Assembly (NCBI GenBank): GCA_002839095.1
Contig: PGXL01000010.1
Span: forward strand, 62,001-126,000
Reading direction: 5' to 3'
DNA: 64,000 nt
Origin: Tenericutes bacterium HGW-Tenericutes-2
GTDB lineage: Bacteria > Bacillota_I > Bacilli_A > Acholeplasmatales > Acholeplasmataceae
Shown: one piece after another, positions 51,170 to 57,048 of the stretch
How positions within the stretch are numbered: position 1 is the stretch's first letter
How the letters are laid out: every line of letters begins with the position of its first letter
Program-made: the position numbers and the translations under genes
Notes under the pieces: model-generated
Told to the model about the DNA's origin: nothing
The model's database searches: none
What the model saw: the letters and a program-made list of their open reading frames with translations, nothing else

Positions 51170-51925
51170 TTAATCTTCTATTTTGAAAGCTGCGTAGAGT
51201 GGGTAATGATCAGATAGATATTCACCTTTTTTTTCATGATGGATAATTTCAAATTTATCCAGATGAATAGCATTTGAAAAGAAAATATAATCTATTGGTA
51301 AACCAGTAATTTCATCTGAAAAAGCGTGGTAGGTCAAACCTATATTCTTTTTATTATCAAAGACTTGATTATATTTGGTGGATAAAAACTGAATGCCTGT
51401 AGAATCTGGTTTCGTATTAAAGTCACCCATTAAAATAATCTCTGTTCTATATTTGATTTCTAGAACCTTAGTCATGCGGTATACATATTCTAATTGATTA
51501 TAGATGATATCATCATTTGCATAATCAAGATGCGTGTTGATGATGGTAAGAAACCGATTCGGGCTTAATTTTAAAACAATATAGGTTGCTATTCTAGGAA
51601 AATGACTGCCATCAATTTTCGATTCAACATATGGGGTATCTGTTAACCAAAAGGTTTCTGTTTCAACAACCTCAAATAATCCCTTTTTGATAAATATCGG
51701 TGTGTACTCCCCACCATCACTTCTCGGTATGCCATATGAATCATAGCCTTTTAAATTTGCTTGTAGCTCTTGATACATACCAGGACCAGGCTCTTGGAAT
51801 CCCATGACATCAAATTTTTTCTGATTTAAAAACTGAAACACTTGATTTTTTCGATAGTCCCATGCATTTTTCCCATCGACTGCAACGTTGATTCTTAAAT
51901 TGAAGCTTAAAACATTTAGTTTCAT
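51170..51925 (-). CDS. Endonuclease/exonuclease/phosphatase family protein
   Basis: 251 residues of the DNase I-like EEP fold. Visible family motifs are LSFNLRI at the start, GFQEPGPGMY (catalytic Glu near 48), INTHLDYAN near 131, LMGDFNTKPDS near 166 and LSDHYPLYAAF near the end. No signal peptide, so it is cytoplasmic; the substrate could be DNA, a phospholipid head group or a sugar phosphate. Monocistronic, convergent to the tRNA gene. Confidence 0.9.
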   Translation of the reverse strand: MKLNVLSFNLRINVAVDGKNAWDYRKNQVFQFLNQKKFDVMGFQEPGPGMYQELQANLKGYDSYGIPRSDGGEYTPIFIKKGLFEVVETETFWLTDTPYVESKIDGSHFPRIATYIVLKLSPNRFLTIINTHLDYANDDIIYNQLEYVYRMTKVLEIKYRTEIILMGDFNTKPDSTGIQFLSTKYNQVFDNKKNIGLTYHAFSDEITGLPIDYIFFSNAIHLDKFEIIHHEKKGEYLSDHYPLYAAFKIED

Positions 51926-52150: not shown

Positions 52151-53299
52151 GTGAATGAAACTCTAAAAGGTTATGTCTATAGACTGAAACCTACAACTAA
52201 ACAAATCAATCTCATTAACCAAACATTCGGATGCGTTAGAAAAATGTGGAATATACTCCTTTTAGAACGAAAGTCTATCTATGAACTTTACGGGAAATAT
52301 CCAGAGTTACTGAAGAGTCATGACTATCTCAATCCTAAAACCATTAAAGAACAATTTCCATATATGTATGATGTAGACTCACAAAGTCTAACCACTGCTT
52401 GGCTACATTTGAAACAAGCCTACACTAACTTCTTTAACAAGTCTCATGATGAACCTCAATATAAATCGAGACATAACCCTATACAGTCTTATACAACCCA
52501 TACAATAAGTGATAATATCCGTATCGAAGGCACTTATCTGAAACTCCCTAAATTAGGACCTGTTAAGATAAAACTTCATAGAGCGTTACCTCAAGGATCT
52601 ATCATTAAAGCAGCAACCATCAAGAAAGATGGAAAGCACTACTATGTATCTCTTCGTGTTGAGTATAATCAAACTCCATTATGTGAGAAAACATTCGAAA
52701 GAGCAATTGGACTAGATTATACCCTACAAGGTCTTTATATGGATAGTGAAGGACGAAAGGCTGATTATCCAAACTACTATAAGAAAGCACTCAAGAAATT
52801 AGCTAGAGAACAACGGATCTTATCTAGAAGAGTTCAAGGCTCTAGTAACTACTTGAAACAAAAAGAAAAACTAGCTAGTCTACATCTTCATATCAAGAAC
52901 CAACGGAAAGACTTTTTACACAAAGCATCTAGATCTTTAGTGAATACCTATGATTTAATCAGTATCGAGACACTGGATTTAACTGAAATGGCGAAAACCA
53001 AGCATTTCAGAAAATCCATTTCTGATACATCATTTGGTACATTCACAAGATATCTTGAGTATAAAGCAAAGGATGAAGGGAAAACCTTAATCAAGATTGA
53101 TAAGTATTACCCATCCACAAAGACCTGTAGTGTGTGTGGAAGAGAGCAAGATATTAAACTCTCCGAGAGAACATATCACTGTATCTGTGGACATCAGATG
53201 GATAGAGACCTAAATGCAGCAATTAATATTGGTGTTCAAGGTTTAATCCAATATGTAAAAAATGCGTATGGAACAGACGCATATAGCTTGGTAAATTAA
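52151..53299 (+). CDS. tnpB: TnpB, RNA-guided endonuclease of an IS200/IS605 element
   Basis: Predicted RuvC-type nuclease that uses an RNA read from the element's right end to cut DNA next to a target motif, promoting retention of the element. The 382 residues are intact: N-terminal wedge/REC region, RuvC-I Asp189 (AIGLDYTLQG), RuvC-II Glu273 (LISIETLDL), zinc finger Cys326/Cys329 and Cys344/Cys346, and RuvC-III DRDLNAAINIG (Asp351/Asp353). GTG start at 52151 with SD GGGGG eight bases before. No TnpA in the window, so mobility would need a transposase from elsewhere. Confidence 0.93.
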   Translation: MNETLKGYVYRLKPTTKQINLINQTFGCVRKMWNILLLERKSIYELYGKYPELLKSHDYLNPKTIKEQFPYMYDVDSQSLTTAWLHLKQAYTNFFNKSHDEPQYKSRHNPIQSYTTHTISDNIRIEGTYLKLPKLGPVKIKLHRALPQGSIIKAATIKKDGKHYYVSLRVEYNQTPLCEKTFERAIGLDYTLQGLYMDSEGRKADYPNYYKKALKKLAREQRILSRRVQGSSNYLKQKEKLASLHLHIKNQRKDFLHKASRSLVNTYDLISIETLDLTEMAKTKHFRKSISDTSFGTFTRYLEYKAKDEGKTLIKIDKYYPSTKTCSVCGREQDIKLSERTYHCICGHQMDRDLNAAINIGVQGLIQYVKNAYGTDAYSLVN

Positions 53300-53371
53300 T
53301 AGACACTAGTCTGTTTTACCCAAGAAGCCCCCACTTCTAATGATTTTCATTAAGTGGTGGGAGTAGTTCAC
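53300..53371 (+). ncRNA. Right end / predicted guide-RNA scaffold of TnpB
   Basis: Between the tnpB stop and 53371 lies an imperfect hairpin (CCCCCACTT at 53328-53336 against AAGTGG/GGGAG at 53352-53363, inner stem TAATG/CATTA) and the tail AGTAGTTCAC. In this family the guide RNA covers the 3' end of tnpB and this end, and its guide is the sequence that follows, here starting GGAGGGTATGATATG. Transcript and ends are inferred. Confidence 0.6.
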
Positions 53372-53383
53372 GGAGGGTATGAT

Positions 53384-54034
53384 ATGCCAACATTATTTAT
53401 TGCAGGTGATTCGACTGCATCGATAAAAACTGAAGATAAAAGACCAGAAAGTGGATGGGGAGAATTTTTGCATGAATTCATTACGCCAAATATAAAGGTC
53501 GAGAATTATGCTCAAAATGGAAGATCGACAAAGTCTTTTATCAATGAAGGGCTATTAGAGCAAATTGAAAATAAAATCAAGGAAGACGATTACCTACTGA
53601 TTCAGTTTGGACATAATGACGAGAAAATTGAAGATACTTTAAGATATACAGATCCTAGAACAGAGTATAAGGATAACTTGATGAGATTTGTATTGGTTGC
53701 CAAAAAGCATGGAGCAATCCCAATTTTATTAACCTCAATTACTAGAAGAAAATTTGCAGATGGTAAATTAGAGGAGCATACGGTGGGAGATTATCCAAAT
53801 CATATGAAGGAATTTGCAAAAGAAAATCGTATAGATATCATTGATGCCTATAAAATAACGCATAGAATTATTAGTCAATCTGGTGAGGATTACTCAAAAA
53901 AATTCTACTTACATTTAAAGCCAAATGAATCAAAGAATTACCCAAATGGAGTAACCGATAATACACATTTAAGCCCCTTTGGTGCTCAAATGATAGCTTC
54001 ATTAATTGCAGTTGAGCTTAAAAAAATAATTTAA
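53384..54034 (+). CDS. SGNH hydrolase, rhamnogalacturonan acetylesterase-like (CE12)
   Basis: Carbohydrate esterase of 216 residues, no signal peptide. All four SGNH blocks are visible: FIAGDSTAS (Ser nucleophile), NGRSTKS, IQFGHNDEK and DNTHLSPFGA. The order and spacing match CE12 enzymes that deacetylate pectin-type or xylan-type sugars. ATG 53384 follows SD GGAGGG (53372-53377) by six bases; a longer GTG frame starting at 53354 lies inside the IS end and is an artefact. The IS sits right before the SD, cutting the gene from a likely native promoter. Confidence 0.88.
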   Translation: MPTLFIAGDSTASIKTEDKRPESGWGEFLHEFITPNIKVENYAQNGRSTKSFINEGLLEQIENKIKEDDYLLIQFGHNDEKIEDTLRYTDPRTEYKDNLMRFVLVAKKHGAIPILLTSITRRKFADGKLEEHTVGDYPNHMKEFAKENRIDIIDAYKITHRIISQSGEDYSKKFYLHLKPNESKNYPNGVTDNTHLSPFGAQMIASLIAVELKKII

Positions 54035-55037: not shown

Positions 55038-55352
55038 TTAGGTTGTTGCTGTAACTCTAAGCTCTGCTCTCATATACTGAGCAACAATTACCATATTATA
55101 ATTTGGCATGGTATCAGGAAGCTCAACACTCCAACCCATAAATAAATAACCGCTTCTACTTTCGACCTCTGGTAATAAAAAGTTAGATAGATCAGCACCA
55201 GCTGCTACATACTCTCTATAGATTGTTTGTCCGTCATGATCTTCGAAGACGATTTCATATATTTCAATGCTTGTTGCATATGCTTTTGAAACTTCAAGGG
55301 TGTAAAGACTAGCTGCTACTAAAACTGTAAGTAATATGATTATATACTTCAT
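55038..55352 (-). CDS. Small secreted protein with one InlB B-repeat-like module
   Basis: 104 residues from ATG 55352 (SD AAAGGTGG nine bases before). Residues 1-25 form a signal peptide or anchor (MKYIIILLTVLVAASLYTL, possible cleavage after AYA). The rest is a single module with the InlB B-repeat/Flg_new pattern: F-x-D-H-D-G, a G-x-x-L turn, LPE, SGYLFMGWS, and a closing VAQY. Such modules usually occur as arrays in large surface proteins; a single copy in a small protein is unusual. Its promoter carries the TTCTTAA direct repeat. Confidence 0.75.
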   Translation of the reverse strand: MKYIIILLTVLVAASLYTLEVSKAYATSIEIYEIVFEDHDGQTIYREYVAAGADLSNFLLPEVESRSGYLFMGWSVELPDTMPNYNMVIVAQYMRAELRVTATT

Positions 55353-55406: not shown

Positions 55407-55460
55407 ATTATACTCATCATATCTTACTTAAAAATAATGGATTTCTTAATTAATTCTTAA
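55407..55460 (-). promoter_or_regulatory. Promoter and direct repeat of the secreted-protein gene
   Basis: TATAAT (55412-55407, minus strand), a poor -35 (ATTTTT), and the direct repeat TTCTTAATTAATTCTTAA (55443-55460; shown on the plus strand) made of TTCTTAA twice with an 11-bp period. The near edge of the repeat is 31 bases from the -10 box. The stop codon of the upstream gene overlaps the repeat. Confidence 0.7.
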
Positions 55461-55942
55461 ATCGTCATTTTTCCGAAAATTGTCGATAAATGTGATTTGA
55501 ACTTACTCAATTGGAAATCTGATTCAACTGAGATAATTCTATCTGCTTCCTCTAGGTCTATTTTTACCTGTTTTATATCAGTCTTTGATGATAATAGCGA
55601 CTGATTCATTTTGTGTAGAAATAGATCATCAATCGTTAGGCAATGAAAACCATGATGATCAATTTGACAGATTGCAAGTGTCCTTAAATAGGATTTACCG
55701 TGTGTTGTCTTAAATCTCATGGTTGTATTAAAGGGTCCAGTCATTTTTTGATTTGAAAAATAATCTAGCTTTCTTTGATCATACTTATGAACAAACTCCT
55801 TGAGTTCATTTTCAGTTAAAGTCATGCTATCTAGGGATAACTCTAACATTTGCTTCATTCGATTCGAAAAAAAGATGGTCATTTCCTTCTTTGTTTTTTC
55901 ATATTTCATGTAAAATGCCCATGGAATCGTTAATTCTTCCAT
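55457..55942 (-). CDS. Unrecognised 161-residue protein, possible PAS-like sensor domain
   Basis: No family recognised with confidence. The run IPWAFYMKYEKTKKEMTIFF, a helical LSLDSMTLTENELKEFVHKYDQ and a later strand pair (MRFKTTHGKSYLRTLAICQ, GFHCLTIDDLF) give the strand-helix-strand order of a PAS domain; the C-terminal third is helical. No membrane segment, no kinase motifs. It lies 115 bases after the response-regulator gene, and its own promoter carries the same direct repeat as the next gene, so it is likely a target or partner of that regulator. SD GGAGGGG before ATG. Confidence 0.6.
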   Translation of the reverse strand: MEELTIPWAFYMKYEKTKKEMTIFFSNRMKQMLELSLDSMTLTENELKEFVHKYDQRKLDYFSNQKMTGPFNTTMRFKTTHGKSYLRTLAICQIDHHGFHCLTIDDLFLHKMNQSLLSSKTDIKQVKIDLEEADRIISVESDFQLSKFKSHLSTIFGKMTI

Positions 55943-55970
55943 AAAAAAATCCCCTCCAATCTACTGGGAT

Positions 55971-56024
55971 ATTTTACCAAAAGAATCTATCGAATTCGTT
56001 TCCTATTTCTTAAGAATTTATTAA
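55971..56024 (-). promoter_or_regulatory. Promoter and direct repeat of the PAS-like gene
   Basis: TAAAAT (55976-55971, minus strand), weak -35, and repeat TTCTTAA-GAAT-TTATTAA (56007-56024, plus-strand view), 11-bp period. Near edge 31 bases from the -10, identical to the next promoter downstream. Confidence 0.65.
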
Positions 56025-56025
56025 G

Positions 56026-56048
56026 AAAAAAAGAGCACCTTTGTGCTC
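56026..56048 (-). terminator. Terminator of the response-regulator gene
   Basis: GAGCAC (56033-56038), CTTT, GTGCTC (56043-56048); seven T follow on the minus strand. Confidence 0.88.
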
Positions 56049-56057
56049 CTTGAATGT

Positions 56058-56747
56058 TTAGCTAAAATCTCCTAATTTATATCCAAATCCCCACATAGTA
56101 ATTACAATTTTTGGACTGGATGGGTCATCTTCTATTTTTTCTCTTAATCGTCTTATATGGACATTTATTACATTATCATTATAATAATACTCTTCTCCCC
56201 AAACTGTTCTATACATTTGTTGCTTCGAGAATGTTTGTTCTGGGTGAGTTAATAAAAGTTTTAATATTTCGAATTCCTTCAGGGTTAAATCTACGACTTG
56301 TCCCTTTTTCTTAACCTCGAAATTGCTTAGGTTAACCTCAATGTTACTGACTTCGAATTTAGTCTTTACATCTTTTTCCATTGATTTTTGTGAGCGTCTT
56401 AGAACAGCTTTTACTCTTGCTACAAGTTCAAGCATTGAAAATGGTTTAGCAAGATAATCGTCCGCACCAAGACCTAGATTGACTGCCTTTTCGACATCGG
56501 TATCCTTAGTAGAAATAATAATAACTGGTACGTCACCCTTGGAGCGTATATGCTTTAATACTTCTTCGCCACTTTTAATCGGTAGCATCAAGTCTAGTAA
56601 AACAGCATCATATTTTATTGAATCGAATTGGTTAACAGCATCTTCACCATTGAATACGGCTTTGACTTCAAACATTTCTTCTTTAAGCTTTGATTCAATA
56701 CTACGACTGATTAGTACATTATCTTCAACAATTAAGATTTTTTGCAT
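56058..56747 (-). CDS. OmpR/PhoB-family response regulator (orphan)
   Basis: Transcription factor of 229 residues. Receiver domain 1-115 with the acidic pocket Glu8-Asp9, phosphoacceptor Asp52 (LLDLMLP), Thr80 and Lys101 (YLAKPF); C-terminal winged helix 130-228 with the recognition region YNDNVINVHIRRLREKI. All residues needed for phosphorylation are present, but no histidine kinase gene is in the window. OmpR-type dimers bind two direct half-sites about 11 bp apart; such repeats occur upstream of the next two genes. Own extended -10 promoter and terminator. Confidence 0.93.
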   Translation of the reverse strand: MQKILIVEDNVLISRSIESKLKEEMFEVKAVFNGEDAVNQFDSIKYDAVLLDLMLPIKSGEEVLKHIRSKGDVPVIIISTKDTDVEKAVNLGLGADDYLAKPFSMLELVARVKAVLRRSQKSMEKDVKTKFEVSNIEVNLSNFEVKKKGQVVDLTLKEFEILKLLLTHPEQTFSKQQMYRTVWGEEYYYNDNVINVHIRRLREKIEDDPSSPKIVITMWGFGYKLGDFS

Positions 56748-56857: not shown

Positions 56858-56979
56858 AATAAAAGAGCCCTGATGACATGGGGGGGATTAAGTCATCAAG
56901 GCTTACTGATTCTTGGTCCACCACTAAAAATCTCAATAAAAGGAGAAATCTTCAGTTACGGTAAACTAGTTGATCAGCA
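56858..56979 (-). ncRNA. Candidate small regulatory RNA with a C-rich terminator loop
   Basis: A self-contained unit without a frame: a TATAAT box (56990-56985, minus strand) with a weak -35, about 120 transcribed bases, and a 12-bp terminator stem (56892-56903 with 56866-56877, one G-U pair) ending in CTTTTATTT. The 14-base terminator loop reads TTAATCCCCCCCAT. Upstream, CTGAT and ATCAG can close a domain with inner hairpin AGTT/AACT. C-rich loops are a mark of sRNAs that cover Shine-Dalgarno sites (RsaE/RoxS type). No known riboswitch was recognised. The neighbouring regulator gene has its own promoter, so this is not simply its leader. Confidence 0.55.
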
Positions 56980-57048
56980 CCTATATTATAACTGAAAATT
57001 AACTATAAATAAAGACAAATAATCATATGTTTTCATTATTTTTCATCA

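Follow-up and report, generated by a model that had tools for sequence, protein, structure and literature searches.

A direct repeat with fixed promoter geometry, very probably an OmpR-type operator, is shared by an orphan response regulator locus and c-di-GMP genes in Acholeplasmataceae

Two promoters beside a kinase-less OmpR-type response regulator carry the same direct repeat at the same distance from their -10 hexamers. By computational analysis of the window (the whole stretch of 64,000 nucleotides that was analysed), of its genome and of related genomes, we found these sites, their fixed geometry and their conservation, the sharing of the repeat with genes of c-di-GMP metabolism, and the co-occurrence of the regulator with a PAS-fold protein. 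We are nearly certain that the repeat is real and have high confidence that it is an operator of the OmpR type; our preferred reading, held with moderate confidence, is that the orphan regulator encoded alongside (56058-56747) binds it. The initial annotation had proposed a small signalling unit made of the regulator and the two genes next to it. An operator common to both promoters was borne out, but this is not a closed three-gene unit: the operator also marks GGDEF genes across the group, and the unit is part of a wider regulon linked to c-di-GMP.

The three genes lie on the minus strand in the order regulator (56747-56058), PAS-fold gene (55942-55457) and small secreted-protein gene (55352-55038), where alignment of relatives supports the conserved ATG at 55352 as the start of the last one. 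The features of the locus are as follows.

56860..56990, minus strand: small RNA candidate upstream of the regulator, with its own -10 (56985-56990) and a terminator hairpin (56867-56902) with a C7 loop
56058..56747, minus strand: orphan OmpR-type response regulator (receiver and winged helix), 229 aa; Pfam
56025..56048, minus strand: intrinsic terminator behind the regulator gene, formed by a GAGCAC hairpin and a T tract; sequence, with hairpins at the corresponding position in relatives
56007..56024, minus strand: direct repeat 1, TTAATAA-N4-TTAAGAA, predicted operator of the PAS-fold gene; sequence and relatives
55971..55976, minus strand: -10 hexamer TAAAAT of the PAS-fold gene, with TGG upstream; sequence, aligned in relatives
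55457..55942, minus strand: free-standing PAS-fold protein, 161 aa; alignment, AlphaFold and structure matches
55443..55460, minus strand: direct repeat 2, TTAAGAA-N4-TTAAGAA, predicted operator of the secreted-protein gene; sequence and relatives
55407..55412, minus strand: -10 hexamer TATAAT of the secreted-protein gene; sequence and relatives
55038..55352, minus strand: small secreted protein, signal peptide and one InlB/Flg_new-like repeat; alignment and Pfam (weak match to Flg_new, E 0.01)

The repeats first reported as TTCTTAATTAATTCTTAA at 55443-55460 and TTCTTAAGAATTTATTAA at 56007-56024 are indeed present with an 11-bp period; in the sense direction of the genes they read TTAAGAA-TTAA-TTAAGAA (secreted-protein gene) and TTAATAA-ATTC-TTAAGAA (PAS-fold gene). 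Their distance to the -10 hexamer, said to be identical, is 48 bases from first base to first base in both promoters, leaving a gap of 30 bp, and both -35 boxes are poor, as had also been described. The strict motif is matched 3 times in the window, where chance predicts 0.03; none of 100 shuffles reaches this count, and the third match is one of the same two sites read on the opposite strand. A genome-wide search had been suggested as a check, because many matches at random positions would argue against the repeat; using pattern searches only, we found no such flood in the 2.3-Mb genome, where the motif occurs at 3 places. The sole one outside the module, C47:130929, is upstream of a GGDEF gene, although we rejected it as a third promoter of the module geometry because its -10 is not at 48. 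The composite motif, with the repeat and a -10 at 48, retrieves only the two module promoters from the whole genome, and its reversed control pattern one match. When two mismatches were allowed, matches in the window were at or below chance, so that weak sites are not callable from the pattern alone and the strict form matters.

The module is conserved well beyond this genome. Among the 100 nearest genomes (101 including the window's own), the PAS-like protein occurs in 21 further ones, with identities down to about 26-28%; the named relatives are Acholeplasmataceae, including Peloplasma aerotolerans and Tenericutes bacterium MO-XQ, and most of the relatives keep the order regulator, PAS-fold gene and secreted-protein gene. 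The 48-base offset is kept in 19 of 21 PAS-gene promoters and in all 18 secreted-gene promoters, across two genera, so that the loss of the repeat in relatives keeping the genes, for which we looked specifically, did not take place. Both exceptions (G006 and G007) show an offset of 49 in the PAS-gene promoter, and the secreted-protein gene is absent from them. Direct repeat 2 (55443-55460) shares bases with the stop codon that closes the PAS-fold gene, an overlap that is frequent in relatives too and that alone could preserve part of the repeat; nonetheless, in G016, G008 and G013 the repeat lies past the stop codon and the 48-base offset is kept. Moreover, the sequence between the repeat and the -10 varies while the offset stays constant in two different promoters, and several promoters contain 3-5 repeat units at the 11-bp period. 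The PAS-fold gene still has its own promoter and operator where the regulator is some 5 kb away (G012, G017 and G033), the two genes being separated by a 5-kb potassium-uptake block in G012 and G017 and by other genes in G033.

Several individual loci deserve mention on their own account. The block inserted in G017 (L081 1038-5950) and G012 (L082 6982-11693) resembles a Trk-type potassium uptake system with a kinase and its own regulator. The regulator of G052 (L093 6431-7117) is frameshifted near its C-terminus, from sequencing error or decay, with both operators intact; the PAS-fold gene of G004 (L080 7681-8033), at a contig end, breaks off after 91 aa, and flavodoxin-ferredoxin-like sequence comes next. 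In G039 of genus g8 (L171 3338-4519), where the DNA is richer in GC, hardly any sequence separates the regulator from the PAS-fold gene and no operator stands between them, which is perhaps the older arrangement. Recurrent matches to TTATTAATGGATTCTTAA in G052, G056 and G060 were discarded as promoter sites, being within coding sequence beside a SufS-like gene. Within the window itself, a lone TnpB/IS605 OrfB gene (52151-53299, plus strand) sits between an exonuclease-like gene (51170-51925) and a GDSL hydrolase gene (53354-54034), which directly adjoin each other, with no TnpB between them, in relatives L076, L077 and L078.

To classify the strict sites outside the module by position, we collected them in 25 genomes: 36 of 52 were intergenic, and 21 of these 36 were found 2-171 bp upstream of a GGDEF gene. 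By contrast, with the same half-sites at the control spacings N5/N6, 23 of 30 matches were inside genes, only 7 were intergenic and none of the 30 preceded a GGDEF gene (21/36 vs 0/30, Fisher p 1e-5). As the N4 sites had been chosen by motif, we also ran the reverse test, comparing 56 GGDEF promoters obtained by domain search with 100 other promoters, using a matrix trained on the module only and a score of at least 12. At period 11, repeats were found in 12 of the 56 GGDEF promoters and 2 of the 100 others (p 9e-5), while each of the periods 8, 9, 10, 12, 13 and 14 gave at most one GGDEF promoter; both p values are optimistic, because orthologous promoters are not independent. The GGDEF domains downstream of the sites were confirmed by Pfam where tested, and that of the G056 gene by its GGDEF motif. 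The operator precedes 5TM-5TMR_LYT+GGDEF genes, some of them with HD-GYP (G010, G011, G012 and G017), and PAS_3+GGDEF genes in G012 and G017 and, in the other genus, in G056; in the window's own genome, three GGDEF genes have a site (L004, plus L258 and L256 through the matrix). An offset of 48 or 49 bases recurs in several sense-oriented GGDEF sites. Roughly half of all sites found before GGDEF genes, however, face away from the gene, which is a poor fit to one simple activator geometry. In genus g3, lacking the regulator, we obtained few motif matches in G021 and G034 and none near GGDEF genes.

These mollicutes contain 12-28 GGDEF genes per genome, and we found no paper in the literature on the regulation of their c-di-GMP enzymes. 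A common operator names a regulon, allows a prediction of which cyclases, out of many, would respond in concert, and points to a regulator that is testable in a cultured relative, Peloplasma aerotolerans.

The regulator belongs to the OmpR/PhoB type, with Pfam Response_reg (2.8e-23) and Trans_reg_C (4.5e-27) domains both over cut-off, and reaches no curated NCBIfam equivalog, the best model being YycF at 210 bits, far below its cut-off of 340. It had been described as an orphan, and there is no kinase beside its gene in the window, nor in the relatives, except for the potassium-uptake block inserted in G012 and G017, which has its own regulator. Separate PhoB, VanR-like and serS-linked regulators are encoded elsewhere in the same genome, as are two unpaired hybrid kinases, on C7 (GAF-HisKA-HATPase-REC-Hpt) and C38 (PAS_3-HisKA-HATPase-REC); these kinases or a small-molecule phosphodonor are possible sources of phosphate for the regulator. 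Across three genera the regulator's recognition helix, VINV[HY]IRRLR[EK]KI, hardly varies. The window's genome encodes another orphan of the OmpR type beside exopolysaccharide-type genes (L029 1459-2166; G000 C29); its receiver is degenerate, and a TTAAGAA-N4-GTAAGAA repeat lies some 230 bp upstream of its gene.

Co-occurrence of the regulator (23 of 101 genomes) and the PAS-like protein (22 of 101) is nearly complete; the mismatches involve G019, whose contig ends before the regulator, G010, where the PAS-fold gene runs off the end of its contig, and G048, which is 67% complete. Over three genera, this response regulator has retained a PAS-fold partner and not a kinase. The label 'PAS-like' given to 55457-55942 from the sequence was upheld by structure prediction: no Pfam family scored over cut-off, and the AlphaFold model (pLDDT 88) matches PAS domains in nearly all of its top PDB hits, although these matches are modest (Foldseek E 2.9e-3, VIA Z 7.5). 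The protein alignment contains twelve invariant residues, including H-x-Y-D-x-R-K of the invariant motif H-x-Y-D-x-R-K-x-x-Y-F.

How the operator would work can be proposed from these observations. A dimer of the regulator would occupy two half-sites head to tail, from about -60 to -43, with chains of dimers where 3-5 units stand in a row, reaching about -21, and the bound regulator would recruit RNA polymerase to promoters whose -10 is good but whose -35 is poor. The likeliest protein to do so is the orphan regulator at 56058-56747, which would drive both neighbouring genes, for the PAS-fold and the small secreted protein, as well as, in this species and its relatives, variable sets of GGDEF and HD-GYP genes, whose products make or break c-di-GMP. 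The initial annotation had the orphan regulator activating its two neighbours; what stands firm of this is an operator of the OmpR/PhoB type in two promoters, with a geometry fixed over two genera, beside an OmpR-type regulator without a kinase. We infer that the regulator acts as an activator and that sensing or tuning of the circuit falls to the PAS-fold protein, and the regulator next door probably links sensing, the secreted protein and c-di-GMP signalling. There is no repeat at the regulator's own promoter, which counts against this explanation and led us to reject autoregulation.

Alternatively, another OmpR-type regulator (CiaR-like, VanR-like or serS-linked) might bind the operator, the orphan being a neighbour or a co-regulated partner, a scenario that we consider possible, if on the whole unlikely. 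It draws on genomes that have operators before GGDEF genes and where the orphan regulator was not found: G018 (92% complete, 6% contaminated) lacks both the regulator and the PAS-fold gene in our searches, yet operators are paired with GGDEF genes at several of its loci, in one case as four tandem units, and G009 (81% complete) and G015 (88%) contain one such pair each. The G018 pairs are the reason why we hold the identity of the binder with moderate confidence. All three assemblies are incomplete, however, and several pairs exist in G018 only; the syntenic neighbour of the regulator is missing from them too, so that gene loss is not distinguishable from incomplete assembly, and the absence from G018 is not certain given its completeness and contamination. 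The recognition helices point both ways. Of known sites the CiaR box comes closest, and the CiaR helix (VVEVYVSKVRKKL) is closer to those of other regulators of this genome, such as the VanR-like regulators on C2 and C45 (VIDAYIKNIRRKL and VIDVFIKNIRKKI), than to that of the orphan; the VanR-like helix of G018, on the other hand, differs from those of the window's genome. Finally, the module sites accompany the regulator throughout genera g1 and g15, and the regulator and the PAS-fold gene are inseparable, which favours the orphan regulator as the binder.

It is very improbable that the sites are instead repressor or architectural elements, or a chance likeness of AT-rich sequence kept by shared descent. 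The genome is certainly AT-rich, and several GGDEF sites are in reverse orientation close to the -35; nevertheless, the shuffles and the reversed-pattern control, the absence of the signal at other periods, the intergenic enrichment (36/52 vs 7/30) and an offset of 48 bases that is constant in two promoters while the intervening sequence varies all argue against it. As for the sites being pho boxes, we rejected PhoB of the same genome as the binder and give this hardly any credence: PhoB boxes are likewise 11-bp direct repeats and the genome has PhoB/PhoR with pst genes, but phoB lies elsewhere with phoR, phoU and pst, and the pstS promoter has a different box, TTTACAT-AAAG-TTTACAT-AAGC-CTTACTT, with no TTAAGAA repeat.

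Between a GH16 gene and the regulator there is also a conserved small RNA candidate of about 115 nt, whose -10 aligns in relatives and which we regard as a lead outside the main claim. In its terminator hairpin, the C-rich loop keeps at least five C, and 9 of 11 stem pairs show compensatory changes in the two genera; an Rfam search of the candidate matched no family. Pairing predictions for the genes of the locus rank the G-rich ribosome-binding site of the PAS-fold gene, GGAGGGG, as the best partner of this loop in 8 of the 12 genus-g1 genomes tested, and not in genus g15; judging from sequence, the loop could pair with the PAS message.

Rather speculatively, and with more doubt than conviction, the orphan regulator paired with a free-standing PAS protein might be the transcriptional hub of the c-di-GMP network in free-living wall-less bacteria, where one operator would switch the PAS protein, the surface protein and lineage-specific sets of GGDEF/HD-GYP genes, and the neighbouring C-loop small RNA would add a second layer on the PAS message.

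Among known systems, the nearest site is the CiaR box of streptococci, NTTAAG-N5-TTTAAG (PMC3091779), also used for a Bacillus homologue (PMC4938410), which shares with the repeat described here nearly the same core, the 11-bp period, an OmpR-type regulator and a conserved -10. Both module sites contain TTAAG/TTAAT cores 11 bp apart. The CiaR repeat, however, ends about 10 bases before the -10, whereas the gap is of 30 bases in 37 of 39 module promoters; CiaR has a kinase, CiaH, and here there is none beside the gene, whose helix is VINVHIRRLREKI (the comparison uses the published helix and box of CiaR); and the targets, a PAS-fold protein, a secreted protein and GGDEF genes, are unlike the CiaR regulon.

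PhoP, which has the kinase PhoR, is among the solved-structure relatives of the orphan regulator. In Mycobacterium tuberculosis, PhoP recognizes 7-bp motifs with a strict 4-bp spacer and also binds runs of three and of four such motifs (PMC4832192), and the 7-bp motif, the 4-bp spacer and the tri- and tetra-repeats have their like in our sites, although the PhoP half-site is TCACAGC and its regulon is another. Tandem half-sites with a 10-11 bp period at weak promoters, a hallmark of OmpR/PhoB-type regulators, are represented here by period 11 only, arrays of 3-5 units and a fixed offset.

The CmrRST system of Clostridioides difficile is controlled by c-di-GMP. It is likewise an atypical system with OmpR-type regulators, and it controls motility and biofilm (PMC12548384). 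CmrR, however, binds an inverted repeat, ACAAT-N8-ATTGT, and has no PAS-fold partner, whereas in the present group the operator stands before the c-di-GMP genes themselves. WalR/YycF, whose model scored best with the orphan regulator, binds 11-bp direct repeats as well, but its half-site, TGTWAH, differs from the TTAAGAA-type half-site, and no WalK lies beside the gene here. Set against all these systems, the proposed mechanism is of a known kind and the regulon is new.
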